Source: a virus
Length of the DNA: 36,747 bases
Reading direction: 5' to 3' (one strand)
IMG/VR virus record: IMGVR_UViG_3300049432_000053
Coordinates: 1 to 36,747 of that record
The notes under the pieces are model-generated. The model saw only the letters and a list, made by a program, of their open reading frames with translations, made no database searches and was not told the DNA's origin. The position numbers and the translations under genes are program-made. Of this stretch, positions 8,776-36,747 are shown one piece after another (position 1 is the stretch's first letter; each line of letters begins with the position of its first letter).

Positions 8776-9078
8776 TCAGCTGCGGTCGGTGGGGAACAGC
8801 TCGAGCTGGTCGACGTCGGTCGGGGTCTCGGGTACGGACAGGCGCAGGCATCGCCCGCAGGTGACGGGGCCGGGGTGGGCGCTGGTGGCGTAGGGGTCCC
8901 ACCCGGAGATCCCGACCATGCAGGCCGGGCCGGGCAGGCGCTCGCCGCCGAGCCATTGGGTCAGGGTGACGGCGTGCACGATGCCGGAGGACCTGACGCG
9001 CATGTGGTCGCCGGGGCCGTAGGCGTCTCTCGCGGCGGCGGCGATCGCCGCGAGCGTCCCGCGCACTGCGTCGACCAT
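8776..9078 (-). CDS. Small protein with CxxC zinc-ribbon-like end, unknown function
   Basis: This 100-residue protein starts MVDAVRGTLAAIAAAARDAY, followed by a short beta-rich middle (MRVRSSGIVHAVTLTQWLGG) and a Cys cluster: CMVGISGW, then HPGPVTCGRCLRLS. The three Cys and the His could bind zinc. GGAGAG precedes the ATG. It is the last gene of the leftward block, separated from the ATPase gene by the GTCACGG array. A longer frame on the same strand (8690-9184) lacks such features and was rejected. Confidence 0.6.
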   Translation of the reverse strand: MVDAVRGTLAAIAAAARDAYGPGDHMRVRSSGIVHAVTLTQWLGGERLPGPACMVGISGWDPYATSAHPGPVTCGRCLRLSVPETPTDVDQLELFPTDRS

Positions 9079-9149: not shown

Positions 9150-9216
9150 ATCCTGGCGCGCGCACGGCTGCGCGTGGGGAGCAACCGCCAGACTCAATGA
9201 TCTTGATCGTGGGTGT

Positions 9217-9300
9217 GTCACGGCCCCTGCGACGTGTCACGGGACGGCGTCACGGCCCATGTCACGGCATGTCACGGGCACCGTGTCACGGCTGTCACGA
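9217..9300 (+). repeat. GTCACGG direct-repeat array, candidate clt (TraB recognition) locus
   Basis: Six exact copies of GTCACGG start at 9217, 9236, 9249, 9261, 9271 and 9285, and a seventh, GTCACGA, starts at 9294. All are in the same direction, and five extend to TGTCACGG. The spacing is 9-19 bases. The sequence is non-coding and starts about 55 bases beyond the stop of the FtsK/TraB-like gene. In Streptomyces plasmids, TraB binds short 8-bp direct repeats in a non-coding clt locus, so this array matches in form and place. Recognition by this particular ATPase is inferred. Confidence 0.7.
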
Positions 9301-9335
9301 TGCTCTGACCAGTAAGAAAGACCCCCAGCCCCCGG

Positions 9336-9359
9336 GCGTGACACGGAAAGGTGTCACGC
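9336..9359. repeat. Inverted GTGTCACG pair overlapping the ATPase gene stop
   Basis: A perfect 9-bp dyad, GCGTGACAC (9336-9344) and GTGTCACGC (9351-9359), has a 6-base loop. It is made of the same GTGTCACG word as the neighbouring array but in both directions, and it contains the stop codon of the ATPase gene at 9354-9356. It could be a terminator for the leftward operon, a boundary of the recognition array, or both. Confidence 0.5.
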
Positions 9360-11693
9360 GTCGACCAGAGCGCGGCCTGCGTGGAGCGGTTCGAGGTCGA
9401 CCACGGTGAAGACGTGGCTGGCGCTGTCGTTGTTGACGTCCAGCGCTCCGAGGTTCACCAGCTCGGTGAGGACCTTGTTGGTCCAGCCACGGGACTTGTT
9501 GCCGGTCCGGACGCGGATCTCGGTCAGCTCGGGGTCGGTGGCGGGGAAGGACGCTCCGAGGCCCTTGGCGACGATCCAGGTGTGGACCAGGCCGCGGGCG
9601 GCTTCGGGGTCCATCCGGCCCGCGCGGGCGGCCTGCTCCTGCTCGGCGGTGCGGGTGTTGAACTGGTCTTCGCGCAGGGTCGGTGTGTGGATTTCGTCGT
9701 AGGGTCCGGCGACCACTTCGGGGTCGGGGTCGTCGGTGCGGAGATACTCGGCGATCGGGTGTCCGTCTTCGCGCAGGCCCTCAATGACGGCCTCTCCGTC
9801 CTCCACCTTGACCAGGACCTCACGGGGGTCGGTGAGACCGGCGGGCTGTGGTCCGACTACGCCCTTCATCTCCAGAGCCTCGAGGATCTGGACGGCCATG
9901 TGGTGGGGAAGGCGGAGCTTGCGGGACAGCATGGCGGAGCTGGCGTGCTGGGTGGCGATGATGAGTTCGGCGGCCTGGGCGAGGAGCTCGCCGAGGTCGT
10001 CCCCTTCTTCGGTGTCGACGTCGACCACATCCGCGACGTGTCCGCCGCCGGCGGGGGCGGCGATCGCCTCGTGGGTGGCGGCCTGGTCGATGGCGGGGGC
10101 GGTCGTGGTGGGGAAGCGGGTCAGACGGCGGGTGAACTCGTCCATGCCCTTGACCTGGGCGGGGAACTGGGCGGAGTAGGCGGTCATCGCGGCGACCGCG
10201 GCCTTGTCACGGATGGCCTCGGACGCGCCCTCGGGAGCGCCCAGGGCCCAGTCCCAGGTACGAAGCGGCATCGCGAGGTGGGCGGCGTCCTGGAAGGGGT
10301 GGTCGAGGTAGGCCATGCCTGGCTGCTTGAACAGCTCGGGGCGGGCTTCGGCTTCCTGCTGGGCGTCCGACAAGCCGTATTCGGCGTCTTCTGACTTGCC
10401 GACCCCGAAGCAGATGAACGCCTGGTGCATGCCGCGCGCCAGGGTCGGGATCTCGGTGTGGGTGGAGCGCTGGAGGCTGTTGAACACCGATCCGCCGGCG
10501 GACCGGAGCTCCTTCATGACCTCCAGCATCAGGTCTTCGTCCTTGGAGCTGAGGTTGCCCCAGAACTTGCCGGCCTCTTCGATCCAGATCACCCAGTACA
10601 GCAGGCCACACCCCTCGACCCACTTGGAGTAGCCGTGCTCGGTGAGCCACTGGGTGCGCTTGGGGATCTCGGCGTGCAGGGCCTTGATGAAGGCGAGAGC
10701 CCCGCCCTTCGTGAGCTCCAGGCGGTGCAGACCGGGCTTGAGCGGGCCGAGGGTCTGCTCTCCCTTACTGGTGTCGATCGCGAACACCGCTACGTCGTAC
10801 CGGGAGATGATCTCGCCGAGGTAGTTCCAGCAGGCACCGATGGACTTACCCGAGCCGGTCGTGCCGTTGACGTTGGTGTGGTGGCCGAGGATCGGGTGGA
10901 GCGCGGTGACGCTGTCCTGGTGGACGCCCGGTCGCAGCGGCAGAGCGATGGTCCCACCGGGGGCGGACGGGCCAGGCCAGGGAATCGGCTTCCTCATCAC
11001 GCGCGGGTCGGTCACGATGAAGTCAGCCAGGGCGGCGTCGTCGTCGCTGCCGCTGATCGACACGCTGCCGGGCGCCAGCCGCATCCCGGACTCGATGTAC
11101 TCGACCTTCTTGACGACGTCGCCGACGGTCTTCTGCCCGGCGGGCAGCTCCATGACAGCCTTGATCTTGTGGTCGGTGACCTCCTTGGTCTTCACCGTCG
11201 CACCCTTGAGGCCGAAGGATTCCTTGCTGCGGTCGAACAGCTCCTTGAGGGCGTCGCCGCCGCGGGCGGGGCCGTCGCCGTGGGTGCCGGTACGGATGAC
11301 CGCGCGGATGTTCCAGCCCAACGCCAGGGTGAACCCGCCGAAGAACCACACGAACACCGTGCCCTGCGCGGTCACTCCGGTGATCGTGGCAACGGTGAAC
11401 CACAAGCACCCGGTCAGGGTCGACAAGGTCGAGTGGATCCGGCCGATGGGGCCGCGGGCGTGGGAAACCAGCCACGTCAGCGCGGTCAGGACGACCGTGG
11501 CGAACGTCCCCGCCATGGCGGCCCAGGGCCCTGAGCTGGTACCGCCCCACATGGCGTGTGAGATCGCGGAGAAGACCATCAGGACGCCGAGCATCAGCCA
11601 CGGCGGGACCAGGACGGCGAGCTTGGTGAAGATCGACACGATCAGGGGAGCGAGGCCGGCGGCCTGGACGACTTCGCTCGTCTTCTTCAACAT
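9354..11693 (-). CDS. FtsK/TraB-type membrane DNA translocase
   Basis: This 779-residue protein has about four N-terminal membrane segments (residues about 12-45, 57-76 and 95-128). An FtsK/SpoIIIE motor domain follows, with Walker A GTTGSGKS (277-284) and Walker B VIWIEE (368-373). Near residues 570-630 there is a winged helix, SSAMLSRKLRLPHHMAVQIL ending GVVGPQ and PREVLV, which closely resembles the FtsK gamma domain that reads DNA repeats. A second helical region ends the protein. The architecture matches actinomycete TraB, the only protein strictly needed to move double-stranded plasmid DNA between mycelia. The start ATG 11693 shares one base with the upstream stop; an in-frame ATG at 11864 lies in the upstream gene and adds non-hydrophobic, non-homologous sequence. 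Alternative: a chromosome-segregation-like helper of the phage. Confidence 0.88.
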   Translation of the reverse strand: MLKKTSEVVQAAGLAPLIVSIFTKLAVLVPPWLMLGVLMVFSAISHAMWGGTSSGPWAAMAGTFATVVLTALTWLVSHARGPIGRIHSTLSTLTGCLWFTVATITGVTAQGTVFVWFFGGFTLALGWNIRAVIRTGTHGDGPARGGDALKELFDRSKESFGLKGATVKTKEVTDHKIKAVMELPAGQKTVGDVVKKVEYIESGMRLAPGSVSISGSDDDAALADFIVTDPRVMRKPIPWPGPSAPGGTIALPLRPGVHQDSVTALHPILGHHTNVNGTTGSGKSIGACWNYLGEIISRYDVAVFAIDTSKGEQTLGPLKPGLHRLELTKGGALAFIKALHAEIPKRTQWLTEHGYSKWVEGCGLLYWVIWIEEAGKFWGNLSSKDEDLMLEVMKELRSAGGSVFNSLQRSTHTEIPTLARGMHQAFICFGVGKSEDAEYGLSDAQQEAEARPELFKQPGMAYLDHPFQDAAHLAMPLRTWDWALGAPEGASEAIRDKAAVAAMTAYSAQFPAQVKGMDEFTRRLTRFPTTTAPAIDQAATHEAIAAPAGGGHVADVVDVDTEEGDDLGELLAQAAELIIATQHASSAMLSRKLRLPHHMAVQILEALEMKGVVGPQPAGLTDPREVLVKVEDGEAVIEGLREDGHPIAEYLRTDDPDPEVVAGPYDEIHTPTLREDQFNTRTAEQEQAARAGRMDPEAARGLVHTWIVAKGLGASFPATDPELTEIRVRTGNKSRGWTNKVLTELVNLGALDVNNDSASHVFTVVDLEPLHAGRALVDA

Positions 11694-12088
11694 CACAGGT
11701 CGACCTCTCCGGCGAAGGGGAACATCTTGTTGGCCTTGACGGGCTTGGTTCCGGCGTCCTGGATGTCCAGGAACTCCCGGCGGTACTGCAGGGTGAACCT
11801 CACCGACTCGGCCGAGACACCACGGGCGAGCTCGGCGGCGCGACGCAGATGGCGGGTACACCACCGGGCCCGGAAATACACGTCGACGCCCACCAGGAGG
11901 GGGTGGCCCTTGAGCTTGCGAATGGCCTTGTTGGCCTGCGCGGCGGCCTCATCCAGCTCGGCGGCCAGGTCGTGGCCGAACTTCTGCGTGACCTGGCCGT
12001 ACTCGGCGATCTTCTTGCCGACCGCGCCGTCGAACTCGATGTCGCCCATCGCGTCCAGGCGGGACTCGCCCGATCCTCCTGCTGCCAT
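11693..12088 (-). CDS. Transfer-operon small protein, paralogue of 12160-12474
   Basis: This 131-residue protein is mostly helical. Its core FGHDLAAELDEAAAQANKAI, LKGHPLLVGVDVYFRAR and RAAELARGVSAESVRF aligns along its length with the next upstream gene (LRGHRLLFGLDAKVKAR, RAQELAHGMGSEIGKF), so the two arose by tandem duplication. GAGGAGG lies 7-8 bases before ATG 12088. It is directly coupled to the ATPase gene by TGATG. It may be an accessory factor of the translocase; no known domain was recognised. Confidence 0.75.
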   Translation of the reverse strand: MAAGGSGESRLDAMGDIEFDGAVGKKIAEYGQVTQKFGHDLAAELDEAAAQANKAIRKLKGHPLLVGVDVYFRARWCTRHLRRAAELARGVSAESVRFTLQYRREFLDIQDAGTKPVKANKMFPFAGEVDL

Positions 12089-12159: not shown

Positions 12160-12474
12160 TTACTTCTTGAAGTGCTTGTCGTAGGCGCGGGAGAACTTGC
12201 CGATCTCCGAGCCCATGCCATGCGCGAGCTCCTGGGCCCGGTTGAGGCGCTTGGCCACACGGCGGGCCTTGACCTTGGCATCCAGGCCGAACAGCAGCCG
12301 GTGGCCGCGCAGGGTCTCCATCGCCGCCCGGGAGTCCGACGCGGCGATCTCCAGCTCGAAGGAGAACCGGCGGCCGAGACGCTCACCCTGGTCGCTGTAG
12401 GCCTTGAACTGTTCGCTGAGCTTGCCCTTGAACTCGATCTTGGCCAGTTCGGTGATCTTGCGGTCGCGTGCCAT
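12160..12474 (-). CDS. Transfer-operon small protein, paralogue of 11693-12088
   Basis: This 104-residue, basic, helical protein starts MARDRKITELAKIEFKGKL. Its second half shares the LRGHRLLFGLDAKVKAR and AQELAHG core with the adjacent downstream gene but lacks that protein's C-terminal tail. ATG 12474 shares one base with the upstream stop; the in-frame GTG at 12477 is an equally possible start. The pair may form a heteromer serving the membrane ATPase. Function unknown. Confidence 0.7.
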   Translation of the reverse strand: MARDRKITELAKIEFKGKLSEQFKAYSDQGERLGRRFSFELEIAASDSRAAMETLRGHRLLFGLDAKVKARRVAKRLNRAQELAHGMGSEIGKFSRAYDKHFKK

Positions 12475-12749
12475 CACGGCTCCACTCCGAACTCGGGGTC
12501 GTCGCTCACGTCGGCGTCGACGTAGCCGTGCCGCCCCGCGCGGTACTCATCAGCCACGACGTGGCCCAGGCGGGCGACGACGGGAGACAGGGGCCGGATG
12601 CCGATCAGGGCCGTGAACAAGGCCTCGACGCCGGTCAGGATCAGCAGCAGCACGGCCCACATGCCGCGCAGCGCCTCGGCCACGGTCGGCCGGTCGGGCC
12701 GGGAGGCGTGCCCCTTGCCGGTGCGGCGGGTGGAGGCCATGACCATCAC
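12474..12749 (-). CDS. Small single-membrane-segment protein
   Basis: This 91-residue protein has a basic N-terminus (STRRTGKGHASRPDRP), one strong hydrophobic segment (ALRGMWAVLLLILTGVEALF, then TALIGI), and an acidic C-terminal tail (VDADVSDDPEFGVEP). GTG 12749 overlaps the upstream stop by GTGA; ATG 12746 and ATG 12740 are alternatives. Small membrane proteins of this sort are common in Streptomyces plasmid spread (spd) operons. The function is inferred from context only. Confidence 0.65.
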   Translation of the reverse strand: MMVMASTRRTGKGHASRPDRPTVAEALRGMWAVLLLILTGVEALFTALIGIRPLSPVVARLGHVVADEYRAGRHGYVDADVSDDPEFGVEP

Positions 12750-13029: not shown

Positions 13030-14388
13030 TCAGAGGTAGGCGCCGGTCTGCGGATCGGCGGTGTCGGTGGCGGCGGTCTTGGACTTGATGCGGCGCAGTG
13101 TCCGCGCGATCGTGGTGCGCGGCACCTGCCGCCCGACCAGATCAGGGATCTTGCTGGCGATCACCTCTTCGTCATCGACGCCCTTGCCCAGCAGCATCCG
13201 GATCGCGTCGGTGGCGTTGTCGGCGGCCGGCCGCAACGGCGGCACCTCGGCAGGTGCCTGCGGCACTGCCGACGCGCTGACCAGCGGCGGGACCGGTGCC
13301 GCTTCGCTGCCGCCGGCAGACGCCGCGGGGCCGGGCCCGATCGGTGGGGGTACTGCCCGGAGGTGCGGCGCGGCGGCGGCTTGAGCCGCGTGCAAGGCGG
13401 CATGTGCCGCGTACTGGGCGGCGGGGGCGGCAGGTGCCGCATCCGGGATCTCCAGGACGGCCCGGGTACGGTCGTCGACGTCGAGCGCACCAGCGGCGAT
13501 CAGGGTCGTGTAGGCGCCCTCGAGATCGGGCTGCCCTGCCGGTGCCGTCTGCGCCCAGGGCGCCGCGGGCTGGACCGTCAGCAACGACCCGGCCCCGTAC
13601 AGGACACCGAGCTGGGCCAGCAGAAGGTCACGGCTGGCCGGGTCGGTGCCCAGCCGCCCATACTCCAGGGCCCGCTGCAGCGCGGTCTCCAATGCGCGGT
13701 GTGCCCGGCGCACCCGCCGCTCGGCACCGCGGCCGGTGGAGGCCTCGGCGAGACGGGCGTGGTGGGCGGCGACCGCCAGCGTCATCAGGGTCCGCTCGGC
13801 CGACACCTCGGCGACCGTCCGGTCGGTCGGGTCGGCCAGGCCCAGCCGGGTCAGAACCCGCTCAGGGGTCAGCCTCCAGTTGATGCCCCGCAGTTTCCCC
13901 GTCCGGGCGCGGCGCTCCAGGCGCATCGACCGCTCCCACCCGTAAGCGGCGACCAGCGGCGCGCTCAACCGGAACAGCACCTCGCCGAACGACGCCGCGT
14001 GGGTGGCGGCCAGGACCGCGCTCAAGCAGGTCAGGACCCACATCGCGACCCCGTCGATCCCGGGCGAGTAGTCCTTCCTCATCGAGGACCGCGCCCGGAT
14101 CGCGCTGCCGATGACGTTCAGCTCAAGGAACGCGAAGAACAGCACGGCCAGGACAGCGGGCATCAGCAGGGTGTGGCGGAAGAACTCCCACATACCCTGC
14201 GCGGCCACACCCGTGGCGATCGCCGCGACCACCACCGTGATGGCGTTCTCCGCCCGGGCGTCGTGCCGGCGGCAGGCCCGCACCGCCGCCCGGACGGCGA
14301 CGAACACCACGGCCAGGGCGAGCACGGCAACGGCGGCCAGGACCCAGGGGTCATCGGTGTAGGTGGACAGGTTCGGCATCTCAGCCAT
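13030..14388 (-). CDS. Spd-like multi-pass membrane protein with C-terminal HTH
   Basis: This 452-residue protein has four hydrophobic segments (about residues 16-36, 48-64, 74-92 and 113-131). A basic segment (LERRARTGKLRGINWRLTPE) follows, then a helical domain and a long Ala/Pro-rich linker. The C-terminus (about residues 395-440) looks like a helix-turn-helix: IRMLLGKGVDDEEVIASKI then VPRTTIARTLRRIKSK. Membrane proteins of this layout occur beside traB in actinomycete plasmids and AICEs, where Spd proteins aid spread between mycelial compartments. GGAGAT precedes ATG 14388. The overlapping plus-strand frame of similar length is rejected because it has neither membrane segments nor recognisable domains. 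Confidence 0.72.
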   Translation of the reverse strand: MAEMPNLSTYTDDPWVLAAVAVLALAVVFVAVRAAVRACRRHDARAENAITVVVAAIATGVAAQGMWEFFRHTLLMPAVLAVLFFAFLELNVIGSAIRARSSMRKDYSPGIDGVAMWVLTCLSAVLAATHAASFGEVLFRLSAPLVAAYGWERSMRLERRARTGKLRGINWRLTPERVLTRLGLADPTDRTVAEVSAERTLMTLAVAAHHARLAEASTGRGAERRVRRAHRALETALQRALEYGRLGTDPASRDLLLAQLGVLYGAGSLLTVQPAAPWAQTAPAGQPDLEGAYTTLIAAGALDVDDRTRAVLEIPDAAPAAPAAQYAAHAALHAAQAAAAPHLRAVPPPIGPGPAASAGGSEAAPVPPLVSASAVPQAPAEVPPLRPAADNATDAIRMLLGKGVDDEEVIASKIPDLVGRQVPRTTIARTLRRIKSKTAATDTADPQTGAYL

Positions 14389-16636: not shown

Positions 16637-16707
16637 TCGCGTGAGTCGGATGACCCGCGTCCAGGATAGGCCGGGCCTCTGACAGTGGGCAGGTCCGTAC
16701 CGCGATA

Positions 16708-16938
16708 TGCGTGCGTGGTGCGTGATGATCATGCCCCATGGTGTCCCACGCTGACCCACACTGACATATTTGCACGTGCATACATGCTGGTCAGGGCCAA
16801 GATCTAGCCTCTGACCAGGATGGCCAAACACTCGACATGATGCGTCTGCGGTATCAAGTCGGATCGAACAGATGCGCAGGTCAGCTGTCCGTTCCGAGTG
16901 ATCGTTCCTTGGCTGTGCGTGCATGGTGCGTGATGATC
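16708..16938. other. Candidate attP region with duplicated integrase 3' end
   Basis: A 23-bp segment at 16708-16730 recurs at 16916-16938 with one mismatch; the second copy is inside the integrase 3' end. After a short length difference, both are followed by TCCCACGCT (16744-16752 and 16942-16950), so the similarity spans the last part of the integrase gene. Between the copies lies an 8-bp dyad, CTGGTCAG (16787-16794) with CTGACCAG (16811-16818), around a 16-base centre. Arm-like repeats flanking a core dyad beside int is the usual attP layout. No tRNA 3' end was recognised, so the crossover point is unknown. Confidence 0.4.
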
Positions 16939-18080
16939 TCTTCCCACGCTCTTTCCACCATGCCGTGCGCGTCGGGCTGCAGGTGCGCGTACCGCTGGGT
17001 GGTCTGCGACGACTCGTGCCCGAGCAGCGCCTGAACGTTGTACAGCGGGACGCCCTCCTGCACCAGCCAGCTCGCCGCAGTGTGCCGGCAATCATGCGGG
17101 TCATAGCGCGGCACCGGATTCTCCCGCTCATTTGGCGGCCGCTTCCTATTCGCTGCTTCCGTCTTCGCGTTGGCCGCGTCGATCGCCTTGTACCAGACAA
17201 CCCGCCAATTCGCCCCCGACACCACAGGAAAGACGGGGTCCTTCTTTGTGCCGGGGCTACACCGACTCGCGACGAATAGCCATGCGTCCGGAGCACGGCC
17301 CGTCAGCAGCGGCGAAAGACCATCGAGCGCATGCTGGGGGGCTGGCACTTCCCGGCGGCTCTTCGACGTCTTCGGGTATTCCTTCCACTTACCTTTCTGA
17401 TCGATCGCGCCCCTGACTCTGATGCGCTTCCGGAACCAGTCCACGGGATTGCCCGTGCCGTCATTGCGCTCACTCCCCGCGCAGCCGGCGGCCTCGCCCC
17501 ACCGCAGCCCGGTGTAGACCATGAGCTCGACCATCGCGGCGTGCCCGGCCGGAAGCTCGGCCTCGATCCGGTCGACCTCGCTGCGCGTGAACCATGTCGG
17601 GATCTTCGGCGGCATCGCAGGGAGATCGATCTTCACACACGGGGTCTCGTTGATCAGGCCCTCAAGGACCGCGTCGCCGAGCATCTTCGACAGCAGGTTG
17701 TACGAGCGCCGGATCGCGGACAGGCCAACCCCGTCCTTCTCCATCTTCCGGATCCAGCCCTGGACGTCCAGGCGCCGGATGCTCATGATGGGCACGGCTT
17801 CCCAGCGCGGCAGGATGTGGTGCTTGAACTGACCGTTGTCGCCGCGCACCGTCTCCGGCTCAACGACCCGGGCCGCCCGCCACCGCACAGCCCATTCGCC
17901 CAGGGATATGCGGCCGGCACGCGGGTCACGCCACTGCCCTTTCTCGATGTCGGCCTCAAGGTCGTACGCCCATTTCTGCACGACCTTCTTCAGCTTGTCG
18001 GTCTTGGTGGTGCGCTTGCGGTTGGGCAGGTAGACGATGCCCTGCCACAGGCCGGACGGGAGCTTGCGGAAGGAGGGCAC
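16881..18080 (-). CDS. int: Tyrosine site-specific integrase
   Basis: This 399-residue recombinase has an N-terminal arm-binding part (VPSFRKLPSGLWQGIVYLPN), a SAM-like core-binding domain (about residues 58-150) and a C-terminal catalytic domain. The catalytic residues visible are Arg193 (YTGLRWGEAAG), Lys240 (TSKSRRE), His329 and Arg332 (DPHDCRHTAASWL), His355 (LLGHESS) and Tyr364 (TQRYAHL). It would insert the phage circle into the host chromosome by attP x attB recombination. GTG 18080 is preferred, with AGGAG 7 bases upstream; the longer frame from 18188 adds low-complexity sequence overlapping the next gene. The 3' end overlaps a repeat that may belong to attP. Confidence 0.93.
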   Translation of the reverse strand: MPSFRKLPSGLWQGIVYLPNRKRTTKTDKLKKVVQKWAYDLEADIEKGQWRDPRAGRISLGEWAVRWRAARVVEPETVRGDNGQFKHHILPRWEAVPIMSIRRLDVQGWIRKMEKDGVGLSAIRRSYNLLSKMLGDAVLEGLINETPCVKIDLPAMPPKIPTWFTRSEVDRIEAELPAGHAAMVELMVYTGLRWGEAAGCAGSERNDGTGNPVDWFRKRIRVRGAIDQKGKWKEYPKTSKSRREVPAPQHALDGLSPLLTGRAPDAWLFVASRCSPGTKKDPVFPVVSGANWRVVWYKAIDAANAKTEAANRKRPPNERENPVPRYDPHDCRHTAASWLVQEGVPLYNVQALLGHESSQTTQRYAHLQPDAHGMVERAWEEIITHHARTAKERSLGTDS

Positions 18081-18105
18081 AGCGCTGCTCCTGTTCGGGG
18101 CGAGA

Positions 18106-18525
18106 TCAGTTGGTCGGGTAGAGCTGGATCGGGTGGGGGCCTGTGGGCGCTCCATCGTCGTGGCCCGCGGCGAGGCCTTGGAGCACATCGAGAATCTCCC
18201 TGTGGATCTGGAGACCCCGACGGGTGTCGGCCTGGACGTCGGCGAAGGTTCGATCGATGCCGTCGAGACGACGGTCGAACTTCTGGGCGCGGGTGGCGGA
18301 TCGTCCCGCCGCGGCCTGCGCGGTGAGAAGGGCAGTGATCAGAGCGACGCCGTTGACGAGCACGACGACCAGGGCCCCGACGCCGATCGTCGGGATCGAC
18401 GCGCCGTGAACGATGATCGTGGCGCCTGAACTGGTCGCGGCTGTACCTGCCGTGATCAGACCGCTGAGTTGGAGGGGTGAGAACTGTACGGGTTGCAACG
18501 GCGGGCCTTTCGTTTTGCGGGGCAC
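18106..18525 (-). CDS. Membrane protein with C-terminal coiled coil, unknown function
   Basis: This protein of up to 139 residues starts at GTG 18525 (or TTG 18498, which has a better AAAGG upstream). Two hydrophobic stretches (LSGLITAGTAATSSGATIIV, then IPTIGVGALVVVLVNGVALI) are followed by an amphipathic heptad helix (FDRRLDGIDRTFADVQADTR and on). It lies just upstream of int on the same strand, where temperate phages often place lysogen-expressed membrane proteins such as exclusion factors. That role is a guess from position; no family was recognised. Confidence 0.55.
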   Translation of the reverse strand: MPRKTKGPPLQPVQFSPLQLSGLITAGTAATSSGATIIVHGASIPTIGVGALVVVLVNGVALITALLTAQAAAGRSATRAQKFDRRLDGIDRTFADVQADTRRGLQIHREILDVLQGLAAGHDDGAPTGPHPIQLYPTN

Positions 18526-23214: not shown

Positions 23215-23537
23215 CCACACCGGGCCCTGGGCCGGCCCCAACCAACGACGTCCCACCCGGCGAGAGCGGCTGGCCCTACACCAACGCCCCGACCGCCCCT
23301 CAGCAGCTGCTCGACATGGCCGCCGCCCGGTTCTTCGGCGCCGACCCCGGCGAGCCCATGGCCGTCTCGCTGGAGGCCGCGGTGACCGCGGTCCTGGCCG
23401 CCGCTGAGAAGCAGATCCGCGCCCGGGTCGCAGCGGACATCGAGGCCGCCCGGCCGCTCGACACCGGCTGCACGGAGAACGTTCTGATCGCCTCAGGCCT
23501 GGCCACCGCCGCGCGTATCGCCCGGGGTGAGCGGTAA
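23211..23537 (+). CDS. Early protein, unknown function
   Basis: This 108-residue protein has a Pro/Gly-rich start and an Ala-rich helical remainder (AVSLEAAVTAVLAAAEKQIR; ARVAADIEAARPLD). The ATG at 23211 overlaps the previous stop. It precedes the replication initiator-like gene by about 100 bases. No domain was recognised. Confidence 0.58.
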   Translation: MTTPGPGPAPTNDVPPGESGWPYTNAPTAPQQLLDMAAARFFGADPGEPMAVSLEAAVTAVLAAAEKQIRARVAADIEAARPLDTGCTENVLIASGLATAARIARGER

Positions 23538-23640
23538 CCGACGTCTCACGCCCGCGACCGACCAGCACCACAGGACCCAGACAGGCCTCACGCCGACGCG
23601 TCAGGCGAATCGACACGAGATCAGCAAGGCAGGTGTGACG

Positions 23641-24417
23641 GTGAGCGTCGAGGCAATTACCTGGGTCCTCAACGAGGCCCCAGGCGTCCCCCCGCAGTTG
23701 GTGAGCATCCTGATCGGTATCGCCAATCACGCGGGCCCGGACGGCAGGAATGCCTACCCGGCCCAGTCGAGGCTGGCGACGTATACCCGCAAAGCGGAGC
23801 GGACCGTACGCCGAGACCTCGCTGAGCTGGAGAAACTCGGCTTGGTTCGGCGCGGCGATCAAAGGGTGGTCGAACACCTCCCTCGCGACCGCCGCCCCGT
23901 GGTTTACGACCTTGTCATGACGCAGCCCGAGACCAGTCAGAACGGGAGGACGCACAGGTCCCCCCGGACCTACACGTCCGGCCGTCCGCGACCGGACGTA
24001 CAAGACCGGGGGGACGCACACGACCGGCCGTCCACGACCGAACGGGGGGACGTACAAGGCCGCAACGGGGGGACGCCCACGTCCTACAAACCGTCATTGA
24101 ACCAACAGAACCAAAATCAGTCCGTCACGCGCGGGCGCACACGCGAGGCCCACCGCTGGCTCAAAGACCGATACGGCCTGACTGACAACGAGGCCGCCGA
24201 GGTGATGACCGAGGCGCAGCGCCGAGCCGCCAGGCCCATCGACAGCCCCGTGCCCTACCTCGAGACCATGGCCGAGGAAGGCCACCTCGCCGACATCGTC
24301 ACCGCCGTCACCACTCCGAGCGAGCCCACTCCGCCGCCAGCCTGGCCGCCCACCACCCAGCAGATGCCCTACGAGCGCACCGTCGCCGAGGCCCTGTCTG
24401 CCGCCCGGGGGAACTGA
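23641..24417 (+). CDS. Replication initiator-like HTH protein (lambda O-like layout)
   Basis: This 258-residue protein has an N-terminal winged helix (about residues 1-95; VSVEAITWVLNEAPGVPPQL, YPAQSRLATYTRKAERTVRR and DLAELEKLGLVRR). A disordered basic linker encoded by the iteron region follows, then a C-terminal helical domain (REAHRWLKDRYGLTDNEAAE and on) like those that recruit replicative helicase. This order - DNA-binding head, iterons in the linker, helicase-recruiting tail - mirrors lambda O. The start GTG 23641 is favoured because the wHTH family starts here; an in-frame GTG at 23527 would add about 38 low-complexity residues. It fits a phage initiator that uses host replication enzymes. 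Confidence 0.75.
   Translation: MSVEAITWVLNEAPGVPPQLVSILIGIANHAGPDGRNAYPAQSRLATYTRKAERTVRRDLAELEKLGLVRRGDQRVVEHLPRDRRPVVYDLVMTQPETSQNGRTHRSPRTYTSGRPRPDVQDRGDAHDRPSTTERGDVQGRNGGTPTSYKPSLNQQNQNQSVTRGRTREAHRWLKDRYGLTDNEAAEVMTEAQRRAARPIDSPVPYLETMAEEGHLADIVTAVTTPSEPTPPPAWPPTTQQMPYERTVAEALSAARGN
23948..24084. repeat. Iteron array, candidate phage origin of replication
   Basis: Six 14-base repeats of consensus GGACGYACAMGNCC start at 23948, 23966, 23994, 24012, 24048 and 24071. Two further 14-mers, GGCCGTCCGCGACC (23980) and GGCCGTCCACGACC (24026), sit directly between them. Immediately after the last copy, 24085-24125 is much richer in A and T than its surroundings. Iterons followed by an AT-rich unwinding zone inside the initiator gene is the lambda ori arrangement. 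Binding by the encoded protein is inferred. Confidence 0.75.
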
Positions 24418-26708: not shown

Positions 26709-27008
26709 ATGTCACGCAAAGTGAGCGACATGGGGCCGGTCGAACGAGCCGTGAATCGTGATCTTGGGAAGATGGGCCGGGCGGCGAAGGCCTCGGCGCT
26801 GGGTGCGATGGCGCTGAGCCTGGGCCGGAAGATCGACGAGTCCGACACCCCCGGGGCGGCGGCCGCGGTGGCCAAGGAGCTACGGCCGACTTTGCTCGAG
26901 CTGGCCAAGGAGTTCCCGCCCGTCCGGGACGCTGACGAGCTGGAGAGTCTCCGCAGCCGGCGGGCCGGAAGCCCTGGAACCCTGCGATCGGCCGGCGAGA
27001 CGCCGTGA
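26709..27008 (+). CDS. terS: Terminase small subunit
   Basis: This 99-residue, helical, basic protein starts MSRKVSDMGPVERAVNRDLG and is directly coupled to the large subunit by GTGA. Length and place fit the DNA-recognition subunit of the packaging motor, which binds phage DNA and presents it to TerL. No clear HTH is visible, so the call rests on order and size plus a central helix-rich segment. Confidence 0.75.
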   Translation: MSRKVSDMGPVERAVNRDLGKMGRAAKASALGAMALSLGRKIDESDTPGAAAAVAKELRPTLLELAKEFPPVRDADELESLRSRRAGSPGTLRSAGETP

Positions 27009-28558
27009 CCCTGATGGGCGTGCGGGCCCCGCGGCTGCACGCGGTCCCCGCGTACGAGCGGACGTACGGCCCAGACGTCGTCGAGCTCGCGGCGATGGCC
27101 GGCCTGGTCCTGGACCCGTGGCAGTGCGACGCCCTGGACGACATGTGCGCGGTGGCCCCGGACCGGCCGGGCGAGTGGAACACCCTGGAGTGCGGGCTGG
27201 TCGTCCCCCGGCAGAACGGCAAGGGCGGGATCCTCGAGGCCTACACGCTGGCCTGCCTGTTCCTGTTCGACGACGAGACGATCATGTTCTCGGCTCACCG
27301 GTTCGACACCGCCCAGAAGATGTTCCGCCGGATCGCGAAACTGGTCGCCGGCGCGCCGTCGCTCAAGCGCCGGGTGAGGCAGGTCTATGAGGGCAACGGC
27401 AAGGAGAGCATCCTGCTCAAGAGCGGCGCCGAGCTGAAGTTCCACGCCCGGTCCGACGCCGCCGCCCGCGGGTTCTCCGGCGACAAGGCCATCCTCGACG
27501 AGGCGTTCAAGCTCGACCCCGGCATGATGGGCGCGATCCTGCCCGCCCTGTCGGCCCGCCCGAACCCGCAGATCGTGTACGCCTCAAGCGCCGGGTGGGA
27601 GATCTCCGTACAGCTCGGCACCCTGCGCCGCCGCGCCCTGGCCACCCTGCACCACGCCCACCGGGCGAACGGGGCCACGATCGAGGAATCCGCGGACCTG
27701 CTCGGCATTCCCCTGGAGGACGCCGAGCGGCTGGAGAAGAAGCCGGGCGCCGACCCGTCCCTGGCCTGGCTGGAGTGGTCGGTGCCCGAGACCACCCAGC
27801 GGACCAAGGCCGCCATGAACGACCCGGCCCTGTTCGCCCAGGCCAACCCCGCGCTCGGGATCCGGTTGACCGAACGGTTCTGCGCCGCCGAACTCCGCAC
27901 CCTCGGCGCGATCGAGTTCGCCCGGGAGCGGCTCGGCATCGGCGACTACCCGCCCGACAGCGAGGACGACGGGTGGACGGTCATCTCCGAGGTGGCCTGG
28001 GCCAAGCTCACCCACCCCGACCCCGAGGTGAGGCCCGGCGCAGTCGGCGGCCGCCGGCCCGCGTTCGCCGTCGACATGCGCCCCGACCGGTCGAAGGCCT
28101 GCATCGCCGCCGCCTATGAGGACGACGAGGGCAACCCCGTCGTCGAGGTCATCGCCCACGCCCAGGGATCTGGGTGGGTGGTGGCCCGGTTGCTCGAGCT
28201 ACGCGACCGGTACGACCCGTGCGCGATCGCCTTCGACACCGTCGGCCCGGCGTCCTCCCTCATCGAGGAGCTGAAGAACCTCGACGTCGAGGTCCTCGAG
28301 CTGAGCACCGCCGACATCGCCCAGGCCTACGGGCAGTTCGCCGACGCCGCCACCGACACCCGGACCCTGCGCCACCACGACCAGGAGCCCCTCAACGACG
28401 CCATCAAGGGCGCGACGACCCGGCCGCTGGGCGTGCGCAAGACCTGGGACCGGACCGGCGACACCGACATCTGCCCGCTGGTCGCGGGCACAAATGCCCT
28501 GCATGCCCACATACGGACCGCGCACCTGGCGACGGACCCGATGGAGAACATCTGGTGA
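27005..28558 (+). CDS. terL: Terminase large subunit
   Basis: This 517-residue packaging motor has an N-terminal ATPase with Walker A-like VVPRQNGKG (about residues 66-74) and Walker B ILDEAF (163-168). A C-terminal RNase H-like nuclease follows, with FAVDMRPDRSKACIAAAYED, AFDTVGPASSLIEELKNL and a final basic helical part. It pumps DNA into the prohead and cuts the concatemer. The start is GTG 27005, or ATG 27014. The QNGKG form of Walker A is usual for the Terminase_1 family of actinophages. Confidence 0.95.
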   Translation: MTLMGVRAPRLHAVPAYERTYGPDVVELAAMAGLVLDPWQCDALDDMCAVAPDRPGEWNTLECGLVVPRQNGKGGILEAYTLACLFLFDDETIMFSAHRFDTAQKMFRRIAKLVAGAPSLKRRVRQVYEGNGKESILLKSGAELKFHARSDAAARGFSGDKAILDEAFKLDPGMMGAILPALSARPNPQIVYASSAGWEISVQLGTLRRRALATLHHAHRANGATIEESADLLGIPLEDAERLEKKPGADPSLAWLEWSVPETTQRTKAAMNDPALFAQANPALGIRLTERFCAAELRTLGAIEFARERLGIGDYPPDSEDDGWTVISEVAWAKLTHPDPEVRPGAVGGRRPAFAVDMRPDRSKACIAAAYEDDEGNPVVEVIAHAQGSGWVVARLLELRDRYDPCAIAFDTVGPASSLIEELKNLDVEVLELSTADIAQAYGQFADAATDTRTLRHHDQEPLNDAIKGATTRPLGVRKTWDRTGDTDICPLVAGTNALHAHIRTAHLATDPMENIW

Positions 28559-28616: not shown

Positions 28617-28880
28617 ATGACGGCGGCCCGGACGAAACGTCCGAAAGCCGCGAACCGGGTACGTGCGCGGATGACTCTTCCGGCGATCGCCGACGTCGCC
28701 GGGAAGGTGCTGCGCGTGGGCCTGGCCGTCGTCCTGGCGGTCCGCGGCCTGGCGGCCCTGGGCCTGATGTCGTATGGGGCCTGGCTGGTCTACCCGCCCG
28801 CCGGTCCGATCACGGCCGGGGCGCTGCTGCTGGCCGACCGGCTCGCCGACGACCGACGTGTGAAGGCGGCGAGCGAATGA
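28617..28880 (+). CDS. Small membrane protein between terminase and portal
   Basis: This protein of about 87 residues starts at ATG 28617 with GGTGAGG upstream; ATG 28578 is an alternative. A basic N-terminus (TAARTKRPKAANRVRAR) is followed by two hydrophobic segments (VLRVGLAVVLAVRGLAALGL; PAGPITAGALLLADRL). It overlaps the portal gene by ATGA. The role is unknown; a membrane protein in the packaging block is unusual. Confidence 0.5.
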   Translation: MTAARTKRPKAANRVRARMTLPAIADVAGKVLRVGLAVVLAVRGLAALGLMSYGAWLVYPPAGPITAGALLLADRLADDRRVKAASE

Positions 28881-30196
28881 GTTACCTGTTCGGTGGTGCA
28901 AGGCTCGAGCGGCGCCACGCTTCGGTCGGGGCGTTCCAGCAGTCGGGGATCATCCCGCCGAACTCTCAGGCCGGTACGGCCATGGGCGGCAACGGCGGCC
29001 TGGAGTGGTCGTTGCAGAAGATCGCGGTGTGGGCGTGTGTGTGCCTGACCGCGACGATCGCCGAGTGCATGCCGGTCGAAGTGTTCGACGACGACGGCCC
29101 GAACAAGTCGAAGGTGCCCCTGCCGTCGTGGCTGGCGGATCTGGGCGGCGACGGTCACGGCCTGCCGGACTGGCTGTTCCAGGGCGTGTTCTCCCAGATG
29201 CTGCGCGGCAACCTCTACGGCCTGGCCCCCGAGGACTTCCGCACCCGGGCGGGCACCCCGACCCTGATCCAGATCCAGCACCCTGACATGGTGAGCCTTC
29301 TCCAGCCGTTCAGCGCCGGAGCGCCTGTGGAGTGGCGTGTGAGGGGCCAGAAGGTACCCGACGGGGAGATGTGGCACCGCAGGGTGTTCCCCGTCCCCGG
29401 GCGGCTGCTGGGGGCCTCTCCGATCGAGTACGGCGGGTCGACCATCAGCCTGGCGGTGGCGACCACGAAGTTCGGGCTGCAGTGGTTCCACGAGGGCGCC
29501 CACCCCAGCGGCATCCTGACGAACGAGGCGAAGCTGGACCAGGGCCAGGCCCGCACCGCGAAGGAACGTTTCATGGCCAGCCTGGTCGGTACCCGGGAGC
29601 CGGCCGTGCTCGGGAACGGGTGGAAGTACCAGACCATCCAGGTTGCCCCGAACGAGTCACAGTTCCTGGAGACGGCGGGTTTCACCTCGGCTGAGTGCTG
29701 CCGGTTGTTCGGCCCCGGGTACGCCCAGATCTTCGGGTATGAGACGGGTGAGTCGTTGACGTATGCGAATGTCGAGCAGCGCAGCCTGGACATGCTGACC
29801 TACGCCGTGGATCCGTGGCTGGTGCGGTTCGAGCGGATGCTGACCCTGCTGCTGCCCGGCGGCCAGAACCTGCGGTTCAACCGGGGCGGCCTGCTCCGCT
29901 CGGACCTGCTGACCCGCTACCAGGCCCACGAGATCGCGCTCCGCAACAAGATGCAGACCGTGAACGAGGTCCGCGCCATCGAGGACCAGGCCCCCGTCCC
30001 GTGGGGCAGCAACCCCGAGGCCGAGGTCACCCTGGCCGACAAGGTCGCCGCCGCCGGCGCGCTGGTCCGCGCCGGGTTCGACCCGACGGAAGCGCTGGGC
30101 CTGGTCGGCCTGGACCCGATCAAGCATCTGGGTCTGCTGCCGGTCACCGTCCAGCCCAAGGCCATCGCCCCTGTACCGAGCACGGAGGACAAATGA
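28877..30196 (+). CDS. Portal protein (HK97 family)
   Basis: This 439-residue protein has the Phage_portal pattern: LEWSLQKIAVWACVCLTATI near residue 45, AECMPVEVFD, the central GASPIEYGGSTISLAVATTK, and EQRSLDMLTYAVDPWLVRFE before a C-terminal helical region. It forms the dodecameric ring through which DNA enters and leaves the head. It overlaps both neighbours by ATGA, as usual for terminase-portal-protease order. Confidence 0.93.
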   Translation: MSYLFGGARLERRHASVGAFQQSGIIPPNSQAGTAMGGNGGLEWSLQKIAVWACVCLTATIAECMPVEVFDDDGPNKSKVPLPSWLADLGGDGHGLPDWLFQGVFSQMLRGNLYGLAPEDFRTRAGTPTLIQIQHPDMVSLLQPFSAGAPVEWRVRGQKVPDGEMWHRRVFPVPGRLLGASPIEYGGSTISLAVATTKFGLQWFHEGAHPSGILTNEAKLDQGQARTAKERFMASLVGTREPAVLGNGWKYQTIQVAPNESQFLETAGFTSAECCRLFGPGYAQIFGYETGESLTYANVEQRSLDMLTYAVDPWLVRFERMLTLLLPGGQNLRFNRGGLLRSDLLTRYQAHEIALRNKMQTVNEVRAIEDQAPVPWGSNPEAEVTLADKVAAAGALVRAGFDPTEALGLVGLDPIKHLGLLPVTVQPKAIAPVPSTEDK

Positions 30197-30885: not shown

Positions 30886-31038
30886 CCGGACGGCCGGTCT
30901 GGGCTCACACTCTGTAGCTGTACGCCTGCGTCAGTTCGACGCCCCGGAGCCCGCCCCGGACCGCGCACCTTGCGGCACCACTCGGGTCACCACTCGGAGA
31001 GCAGCAGGCATCATCCGACGTACCAACGGAGATGCCTT

Positions 31039-32532
31039 ATGTCCCGAATGGATTTCCTTCGCGCTCGCATGGTCGAGCTGCTGGAGAAGCGCAACACCGC
31101 GCAGGCCGCCGTCGACGAGGTCCTGTCGGCGCCGACTGCGGAAAACCGTGACCTGACCGCCGAGGAGACCTCGCGGTTCCAGGAGCGTCAGGCCTCGGTC
31201 GTCGCCGTCGACGGCGAGATCGCAGGCGTGCAGACCGAGCTGACAGCCGCCGAGGACGCCGAGAAGCGCTCCGCAGCGGCCGCCGCTCTGACGGCCAAGT
31301 ACGGGCAGGCCAAGCCCGCCGGACCGAGCGGCCGCGTCGAGGTCGTCTCGGAGCCGCTCACCTACCAGCGCGGTAACGGCCAGTCGTACTTCATGGACCT
31401 CGCGAACGCGCAGCTGCGTGGCGACTCCGAGGCGGCGACCCGCCTGCAGGCGCACGGCCGTGAGCTCGAGGTGGAGATGCCGGCCCGCGACAAGCGGCGC
31501 GATGAGCGGGCCCGCCAGGAGCTGAGCAGCATCTCCCACCTGCCCCGCGAATACCGGGAGTCGGTGTTCGAGAAGCGCACCAACCCCAACCGCACCGACG
31601 GGCAGGGCGGCTACTTCGTTCCGCCGCTGTGGCTGGTGGATGAGTACATCGACCTGCCCCGGTTCGGGCGCCCGTTCGCGAACGCGGTCCGGAACCTGAC
31701 CCTGCCGACCGGCACGGACTCCATCAACCTCCCGAAGATCGCCACGGGTACGGCCGTGGGAGTGCAGACCGCGGACGCGGCGGCGGTCACCAGCACCGAC
31801 CTGACCGACACGTTCGTGAACGCCCCGGTCCGCACGATCGCCGGTCAGCAGGACGTCGCGATCCAGCTGCTCGACCAGTCCCCGGTGTCCTTCGACCAGA
31901 TCGTGTTCGCCGACCTGATCGCCGACTACAACCAGAAGCTCGACCTGCAGACGCTCAACGGGACCGGCCTGAACGGGCAGCTGCTCGGCGCACTCAACGT
32001 GACCAGCCCGAACGCGATCACCTTCACCGACGCCGATCCCACGCTCCCGGAGATGTGGGTGCCGTGGGTGAAGTCGGTGTCCCAGGTGTTCACGAACCGG
32101 AAGATGCCCGCGACGGCCACGTTCGTGCTGCCGTCGATCTGGTACTGGGCGGCGTCGCAGCTCGACACCACGAACCGGCCGCTGATCATCCCCGAGCAGG
32201 GCGGGGCGTTCAACCCGATGGCCCTGCAGACCGGCGAAGTCGCCGAGGGCCCGGTAGGACGTCTGACCGTGGGGACCCCGGTCATCCTGGACGGGAACAT
32301 CCCGGCGAACCTCGGGGCCGGGACGAACGAGACCCGCATCCTGACGGTCCGCACCCCGGACCTCTACCTGTGGGAAGGCGCGATGCGCACCCGGGTCCTG
32401 CAGGAGGTCCTGTCCGGCACGCTGCAGGTCCGGTTCCAGGTGTACAACTACGCGGCGTTCATGCCCGACCGGCTGCCCAAGGCCATCTCCATCGTCAGCG
32501 GCACGGGCATGATCCCGACCGCCGGATTCTGA
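31039..32532 (+). CDS. Major capsid protein (HK97 fold) with N-terminal scaffold domain
   Basis: This 497-residue protein has an N-terminal coiled coil (residues ~1-100; FLRARMVELLEKRNTAQAAV and on) that serves as delta scaffold for removal by the protease. The HK97 core follows: LPTGTDSINLPKIATGTAVG, DVAIQLLDQSPVSFDQIVFA, a central domain, and RVLQEVLSGTLQVRFQVYNY near the end. The start ATG 31039 has GGAGAT upstream, and the in-frame ATG at 30970 lies in the leader. The 153-base leader (30886-31038) holds a small hairpin at 30884-30899 and a doubled CACCACTCGG (30976 and 30988). Confidence 0.93.
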   Translation: MSRMDFLRARMVELLEKRNTAQAAVDEVLSAPTAENRDLTAEETSRFQERQASVVAVDGEIAGVQTELTAAEDAEKRSAAAAALTAKYGQAKPAGPSGRVEVVSEPLTYQRGNGQSYFMDLANAQLRGDSEAATRLQAHGRELEVEMPARDKRRDERARQELSSISHLPREYRESVFEKRTNPNRTDGQGGYFVPPLWLVDEYIDLPRFGRPFANAVRNLTLPTGTDSINLPKIATGTAVGVQTADAAAVTSTDLTDTFVNAPVRTIAGQQDVAIQLLDQSPVSFDQIVFADLIADYNQKLDLQTLNGTGLNGQLLGALNVTSPNAITFTDADPTLPEMWVPWVKSVSQVFTNRKMPATATFVLPSIWYWAASQLDTTNRPLIIPEQGGAFNPMALQTGEVAEGPVGRLTVGTPVILDGNIPANLGAGTNETRILTVRTPDLYLWEGAMRTRVLQEVLSGTLQVRFQVYNYAAFMPDRLPKAISIVSGTGMIPTAGF

Positions 32533-36300: not shown

Positions 36301-36747
36301 TCGTCATCGAGTTGAGCGACTGCCGGGTCGCCTCGTGCATCGCCGCTGGGCAGACCGAGCACCGGTGGGAGTGGGAGCGGCCCACCGTCCGGGAGCTGCT
36401 GCGCGTCCAGGAAACGCTCGGCATGGATCCCGACCAGTGGCAGGACGCGCTGGGCCAGGCGATGCAGGGCCTTACCGCCGACGCCATGAAAGCCTCGATC
36501 ATGCTGGTCACCGTGCTGCACAGCCGGATCGGTGTCCCTGCCACCTATGAGGAAGTGGACTTCGACCTGTTCAGTCTGCGGTTCCTGTCCGACCCCGACG
36601 CCGAGGCCGCCCAGGCCGAGGACGACCCGGGAAAAGCACCGACCCCGACCTCCCCCCACCCCGGCGCAGACGACCCCGCCAGCTCAACATCTGGTCCCTC
36701 GAGCGAGGCGGGATCCGCGCCCAGGTCGTCTCGTACTCGGCGGAACT
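36297..36747 (+). CDS. Tail assembly chaperone, 5' part (gpG-like), continues across circle
   Basis: GTG 36297 overlaps the previous stop by 4 bases. The protein starts MIVIELSDCRVASCIAAGQT and has a helical G-like domain (VRELLRVQETLGMDPDQWQD; ASIMLVTVLHSRIG), then an acidic linker. The codons CCG GGA AAA at 36627-36635 carry the slippery heptamer. The frame runs off the window but continues exactly at the left end: 158 residues without slippage, about 189 with it. It works with the tape measure protein in tail assembly. Confidence 0.88.
   Translation, partial: MIVIELSDCRVASCIAAGQTEHRWEWERPTVRELLRVQETLGMDPDQWQDALGQAMQGLTADAMKASIMLVTVLHSRIGVPATYEEVDFDLFSLRFLSDPDAEAAQAEDDPGKAPTPTSPHPGADDPASSTSGPSSEAGSAPRSSRTRRN
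36622..36747. repeat. Right copy of terminal direct repeat (circular overlap)
   Basis: Identical over 126 bases to 19-144. It contains the slippery site at 36629-36635 and part of the chaperone gene. Confidence 0.93.

Follow-up and report, generated by a model that had tools for sequence, protein, structure and literature searches.

A candidate clt-type repeat site beside a TraB-like gene in a circular temperate actinophage genome

The DNA analysed here, hereafter the window, is the 36,747-nt IMG/VR virus record IMGVR_UViG_3300049432_000053, in which a 275-bp gap separates a probable gene at 8776–9078 (minus strand) from the end of a traB-like gene at 9354 (also minus strand). Within this gap lies an array of seven direct repeats (9217–9300, plus strand; consensus TGTCACGG), which are candidate TraB recognition sequences; the closest TraB loci share the motif. 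GTCACGG occurs exactly at 9217, 9236, 9249, 9261, 9271 and 9285, and the seventh copy, at 9294, reads GTCACGA. The core GTCACG is invariant in eight copies, including one at 9353, and is usually preceded by T, while a single inverted copy lies at 9337. The original prediction of seven same-direction copies, six of them exact, in 84 non-coding bases was confirmed by counting, as was its remark that only scattered single copies occur elsewhere, since the ten other GTCACGG in the window are each isolated and fall on both strands. The total of 16 copies is not raised over the 13.8 expected, and hence only the clustering is unusual. This clustering lies far beyond chance: the largest number of copies of one 7-mer within 84 nt was at most three in 59 of 60 first-order Markov genomes, and four in the remaining one. 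Similar clusters in other parts of the window, which had been named as evidence against the site, were also looked for, and no 300-nt stretch of the rest of the window held more than four copies of any 7-mer.

The predicted interval of 9217–9300 holds the array, but only part of the conserved unit, which extends from about 9198 to 9359. On the plus strand this clt-like element comprises TGATCTT, the repeat array, a constant box, a C-rich tract and an inverted pair, and it aligns end to end with elements at the traB 3' ends of Actinomadura and Actinokineospora (L083–L090, L100, L111, L116 and L117). The constant box, recognized by its conservation downstream of traB, reads TTACTGGTCAG in the window (9305–9315, minus strand; consensus TTACAGGTCAG, that is, TTAC(A/T)GGTCAG) and is sited between the inverted pair and the array. 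The C-rich tract ACCCCCAGCCCCCGGG (9320–9335, plus strand), which is G-rich on the opposite strand, is conserved beside the box. In relatives, the G-rich tract near the box (GGGCGGGGGCTGGGGGAGGG) could form a G-quadruplex; the tract of the window is shorter. At 9336–9359, two opposed repeat copies form a perfect 9-bp inverted repeat, GCGTGACAC-GGAAAG-GTGTCACGC, which holds the traB stop codon: the TGA at 9354–9356 falls within TGACACC (9350–9356, minus strand)/GCGTGACACC, one arm of the inverted repeat. The 3' end of traB carries both an array of seven direct copies and a perfect inverted pair. The single-strand folding of the whole element is ordinary (z −0.47). Relative to traB, the element of the window and of L111 is flipped compared with that of the other close relatives; one orientation is found in L083–L090, L100, L106, L108, L109, L114, L116, L117 and L121, and the other in the window, L111, L045 and L056. 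Since the array points either way in different relatives, its orientation toward the gene is unconstrained, and the clt-like element behaves as an independent cis module.

The traB-like gene (9354–11693, minus strand) encodes a protein of 779 aa, assigned by matches to NCBIfam plasmid_TraB and Pfam FtsK_gamma, by tblastn and by an AlphaFold2 model. The plasmid_TraB match (5.2e-107) covers residues 25–548, and its 358.9 bits fall short of the 800-bit cut-off of the TraB equivalog NF041214; judged by these matches, the product is homologous to plasmid TraB but divergent. Its best plasmid relatives by tblastn are TraBs, pJV1 included, and TraB-like hypothetical proteins, at about 30–42% identity. 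In 50,697 phage records, tblastn gave no match at 1e-5, and the matches added at E values up to 10 were either very weak or confined to the gamma domain. When viral contigs were scanned with the window TraB as a single protein, nothing was found, whereas an alignment-based scan did find loci. The protein has two predicted transmembrane helices at the N-terminus and a motor with the Walker A sequence GTTGSGKS, which adopts an FtsK fold in the AlphaFold2 model, a model of modest confidence (mean pLDDT 64). The same model contains two winged helices, an FtsK-gamma domain at about residues 565–627 and a C-terminal TraB-type domain at about 696–764, the modelled recognition helix of the latter spanning residues 735–747. 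All the features that define a TraB translocase, namely a membrane anchor, an FtsK-like motor with Walker A and a C-terminal winged helix, are thus present. The FtsK-gamma domain (window about 9813–9999) resembles its counterpart in the chromosomal FtsK of related hosts at 39–46%. Counts of the FtsK-type loading motif GGGNAGGG are too low to be informative.

Several further genes, among them those of the tra cassette, lie upstream of traB on the minus strand. A small protein conserved upstream of traB (11693–12088) is 47–60% identical to its counterparts in the closest Actinomadura loci. The next (12160–12477) is TraA-like, with 52–61% identity in those loci and a weak match to NCBIfam plasmid_TraA (7.6e-4; NF041213, 19.6 bits, under the curated cut-off of 80 bits). 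Another small protein (12474–12749), with one or more hydrophobic segments predicted from hydropathy, has relatives of 43–66% identity in related tra loci. At 13030–14388 lies a gene for a multi-spanning membrane protein, identified from hydropathy and from the neighbours of traB elsewhere, which is possibly a spreading protein of the Spd type. In a Thermobispora plasmid, a homologue directly follows the 3' end of traB, and homologues adjoin traB in several phage or prophage loci. A comparison with a protein of the post-traB cluster of pJV1 gave no match, and so the designation Spd-like is based on topology and position. The family, which has no Pfam name and is represented by L007 (10008–11549) and in Nocardia farcinica plasmids, occurs in TraB phages and in actinomycete plasmids. 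A membrane protein of this type is also encoded by phage L029, in which TraB was not found.

These genes belong to a phage. Positions 19–144 are identical to 36622–36747 over 126 bp, which closes the sequence into a circle of 36,603 bp, as the phrase "whole circle" in the original prediction had correctly implied, although IMG/VR lists the record as linear. The initial 18 nt disagree with the opposite end, apparently through an assembly error. In addition, an open reading frame stays open across the end joint of the window. The overlap and this reading frame together place the tra and virion genes on one element, and they rule out an integrated conjugative element joined to an adjacent prophage; direct repeats of at least 12 nt flanking the tra module, the absence of which also counts against such a joined element, were not found. 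The circle encodes a tyrosine integrase (16881–18188, minus strand; Pfam Phage_integrase 2.4e-19, PHROG integrase 7.3e-52) and, on the plus strand, a terminase large subunit (27005–28558; PHROG 1.4e-63), a portal protein (28877–30196; Pfam Phage_portal 1.2e-47) and a major capsid protein (30970–32532; PHROG major head protein 4.7e-55), as well as tail and amidase genes. What carries the site is a temperate phage genome, closed at 36.6 kb, and not an ordinary plasmid. It falls outside the definition of an actinomycete integrative and conjugative element (AICE; integrase and TraB/FtsK with no virion genes), as terminase, portal, capsid and tail genes are on the same circle, and within that of a plasmid-phage, in which phage structural and plasmid functions share one circular element. 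Neither ParA nor ParB turned up among the proteins scanned, and a search for attP against tRNA ends yielded nothing convincing. GTGCGTG occurs four times within 300 nt in the region where the integrase gene ends (16650–16999) and may relate to attP.

The phages nearest in capsid (about 60% identical) showed no TraB in 23 records, many of which are fragments, in a search run without a positive control. The nearest TraBs are found in Actinomadura genomes, mostly without a detected terminase of family phrog_9, which suggests that the tra cassette and the site were acquired from an integrated conjugative element. Six Actinomadura genomes searched (G059–G064) gave no phrog_9 terminase, and in a seventh, G076, one is present, but on another contig. 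Their tra loci (L083–L088 and L116), as relatives of the window, are new in this analysis: they share a TraB of 48–51% identity that has the gamma domain, the same repeat, box and C-rich tract, and the small upstream genes, and differ in that the element is mostly inverted relative to traB. TraB and terminase occur together in 16 further IMG/VR records, though they can stand far apart in the longest of these, and on shared contigs in three Nonomuraea genomes. A Herbidospora prophage has the order of the window: terminase, portal, capsid and tape measure come first, then amidase and a traB that faces the other way.

TraB loci were gathered from IMG/VR, genomes and plasmids, and about 300 nt past traB were examined in each. 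A same-direction 8-mer cluster stronger than in all 20 shuffles was present past traB in 47 of the 96 TraB loci, of which some are the same DNA in two collections (e.g., L045/L096, L046/L099, L056/L128), so that independent cases are somewhat fewer than counted. About half of the 96 showed no cluster by the shuffle test; some of these have the site elsewhere, and some perhaps have none. The Nonomuraea-type loci L006, L101, L102, L104, L105, L107 and L118 lack a repeat cluster in the 300 nt that follow traB, and in L006 the next gene follows directly after traB, so the site may lie elsewhere. The repeats vary by lineage around a common shape (GTGACACC, CTGACACC, GTGGCACC, GTGGCCCC, GTTGCACC, CCGCACA), and the closest relatives, from Actinomadura and Actinokineospora, bear the window's own TGTCACG arrays in the same place, within an element of about 160 bp.

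This variation follows the TraB recognition helix. Helices of the form DIS-R-x-W pair with GTGGCCC repeats and DMS-R-x-W with GTGGCAC, while R-x-W-x-S helices go mostly with CTGACACC and R-x-W-x-Y/N mostly with CGTGAC. With motor-domain distance controlled, helix and repeat remained associated (partial Mantel r = 0.26, p = 0.0005), in a type of test that overstates significance among related sequences; the association is strong, yet it partly reflects shared ancestry that is not fully removed. TraBs lacking the gamma domain (L089, L090, L100 and L117) still have a GTCACG array. The gamma domain is thus dispensable for repeat identity, and its candidacy as the repeat reader is ruled out by these natural proteins. 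The original prediction had assigned the reading to a winged helix of the adjacent ATPase, and this is supported for the C-terminal TraB-type helix, which covaries with the repeats, but not for the FtsK-gamma domain; the reader is most likely the former rather than the domain detected by Pfam. The table of helices and repeats offers about 50 natural pairs on which TraB specificity can be tested.

The constant box behaves differently from the repeats. At no more than one mismatch, TTACAGGTCAG is found in 32 of the 99 stretches downstream of traB (the window and 31 others), where the remainder of the same loci predicts 0.003 per stretch, and its spacing to the next repeat is mostly 24–25 or 13–14 nt. 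It is constant across loci whose repeats differ, and so its reader is probably not the variable recognition helix. A limited literature search found no description of the box, which is apparently an undescribed, concrete part of clt.

The type of gene, the position at the traB 3' end, the conservation in relatives, the motif shared with the footprinted clt of pWTY27 and the covariation with the helix all support the candidate clt of the original prediction. With considerable confidence, we regard the cluster as the core of clt, a cis-acting loading site on phage DNA for the phage's own TraB. Weighing against this are the shared ancestry behind part of the helix–repeat association, the TraB score under the equivalog cut-off, the loci without a cluster and the variable orientation of the array. 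The strongest competitor, which we consider unlikely, is that the site does load TraB/FtsK, but to segregate or move phage DNA within the mycelium rather than to pass it to a recipient. The gamma domain, with its 39–46% likeness to that of host FtsK, fits such a role, and cultured phages carry FtsK-like proteins of unknown role; yet the motor and C-terminal domain are of the plasmid TraB type, a TraA-like protein is encoded nearby, and the closest kin reside in Actinomadura genomes, most of them without a detected phrog_9 terminase. Much less probable is an iteron array, part of a replication origin and recognized by a replication initiator. Iterons are likewise clustered short direct repeats, and rep and tra genes are often found together on plasmids. 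However, whether in phages, plasmids or genome loci, the array comes after traB and not after a rep gene, the sequence of the repeats covaries with the TraB helix, and the likeliest replication gene of the window, for an HTH_36 protein (23527–24417), is about 14 kb off; in pWTY27, moreover, the iterons occupy a site apart from clt and differ from its repeats (PMC3583192). We give an equally small chance to a set of operators through which a transcriptional regulator controls the tra genes or the gene at 8776–9078, for which the position between two genes and the control of tra operons in this group by repressors (PMC4170104) might speak. The array lies at the 3' end of traB instead of before its operon, a simple scan for sigma-70-type sites found no promoter-like site, and seven asymmetric same-direction copies are unlike dimer operators. 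Arm-type sites of the integrase or a phage packaging (pac) site can both contain short direct repeats, and the window encodes an integrase and a terminase, but these genes are 7.5 kb and, on the circle, about 18 kb away and the same array is present in Actinomadura genomes with no detected phrog_9 terminase, which leaves either scarcely credible.

If the array is the core of clt, the C-terminal winged helix of TraB would read the 7–8-bp repeats, as homology and covariation indicate. By analogy with TraB biochemistry in other systems, the array-bound subunits would then assemble into a hexameric FtsK-like motor of fixed polarity. Once excised and circular, the double-stranded phage genome could be pumped by this motor through the membrane to the adjacent hypha, a step in which the membrane protein encoded at 13030–14388 may assist. 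More speculatively, TraB acting on the integrated prophage could drag chromosomal DNA along. The constant box belongs to this site as its second part, and, again speculatively, a further conserved factor may bind it. Conjugation of the phage element is what we infer from these sequence features. A broader proposal, which we put forward tentatively and hold to be somewhat short of an even chance, is that a compact temperate actinophage travels in virions and is also passed from hypha to hypha as naked double-stranded DNA by a TraB of its own. It would do so from a two-part docking site, in which repeats coevolving with TraB are combined with the constant TTACAGGTCAG box, at near-fixed spacing in phages, plasmids and integrated elements, to load or position the motor via a second factor. 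As the cluster beside the TraB gene matches plasmid docking sites, the phage may, if this is true, spread by cell contact besides virus particles. TraB homologues accompanied by clt-like repeats are found repeatedly in the phages and prophages of mycelial actinomycetes, in many cases where the late operon ends. If these are functional, their phages could move from one hypha to the next with no need for lysis, and mobilization of chromosomal DNA would be possible, as by TraB plasmids.

Among known systems, the clt of pWTY27 is needed in cis for transfer, and footprinting with the TraB homologue marks a region whose TGACACC repeats start inside the gene (PMC3583192); in the pWTY27 sequence, the traB stop codon lies inside GTGACACC. 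The two sites share the position at the 3' end of traB/traA, the 7-bp TGACACC, the overlap with the stop codon and the inverted repeats. They differ in that pWTY27 has four published direct repeats against seven GTCACG copies in the window, is a plasmid and not a phage, and has no evident exact box TTACAGGTCAG. The clt of pJV1 (described in PMC3583192; sequence L009) likewise has nine same-direction short repeats just past traB, although its repeat is CCGCACA(C/G)(C/G). The TraB of pSVH1 forms an FtsK-like hexamer, in which alpha 3 of the C-terminal winged helix reads 8-bp repeats (Vogelmann et al. 2011, via PMC3583192 and PMC4170104); the window shares the FtsK-like TraB and the C-terminal winged helix, whereas pSVH1 has no phage genes and the window TraB adds an FtsK-gamma domain. 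Phage structural genes in a mobile element are also found in pZL12/ΦZL12, pSLE1, pCQ3 and ΦNon1 of Nonomuraea (PMC4487206, PMC5431353). Transfer functions have been characterized for pZL12 (cited in PMC4487206 and PMC3583192), pCQ3 carries traA-traB, tail genes and ParAB, and the ΦNon1 paper does not describe transfer genes (PMC5431353). These plasmid-phages are 59–90 kb in size and of a different tra lineage, in contrast to the 36.6-kb integrase-bearing genome of the window, and pCQ3 and pSLE1 differ further in carrying ParA/ParB. Thus, plasmid-phages with transfer genes are already known from pZL12 and pCQ3, and the window adds another tra lineage to them.
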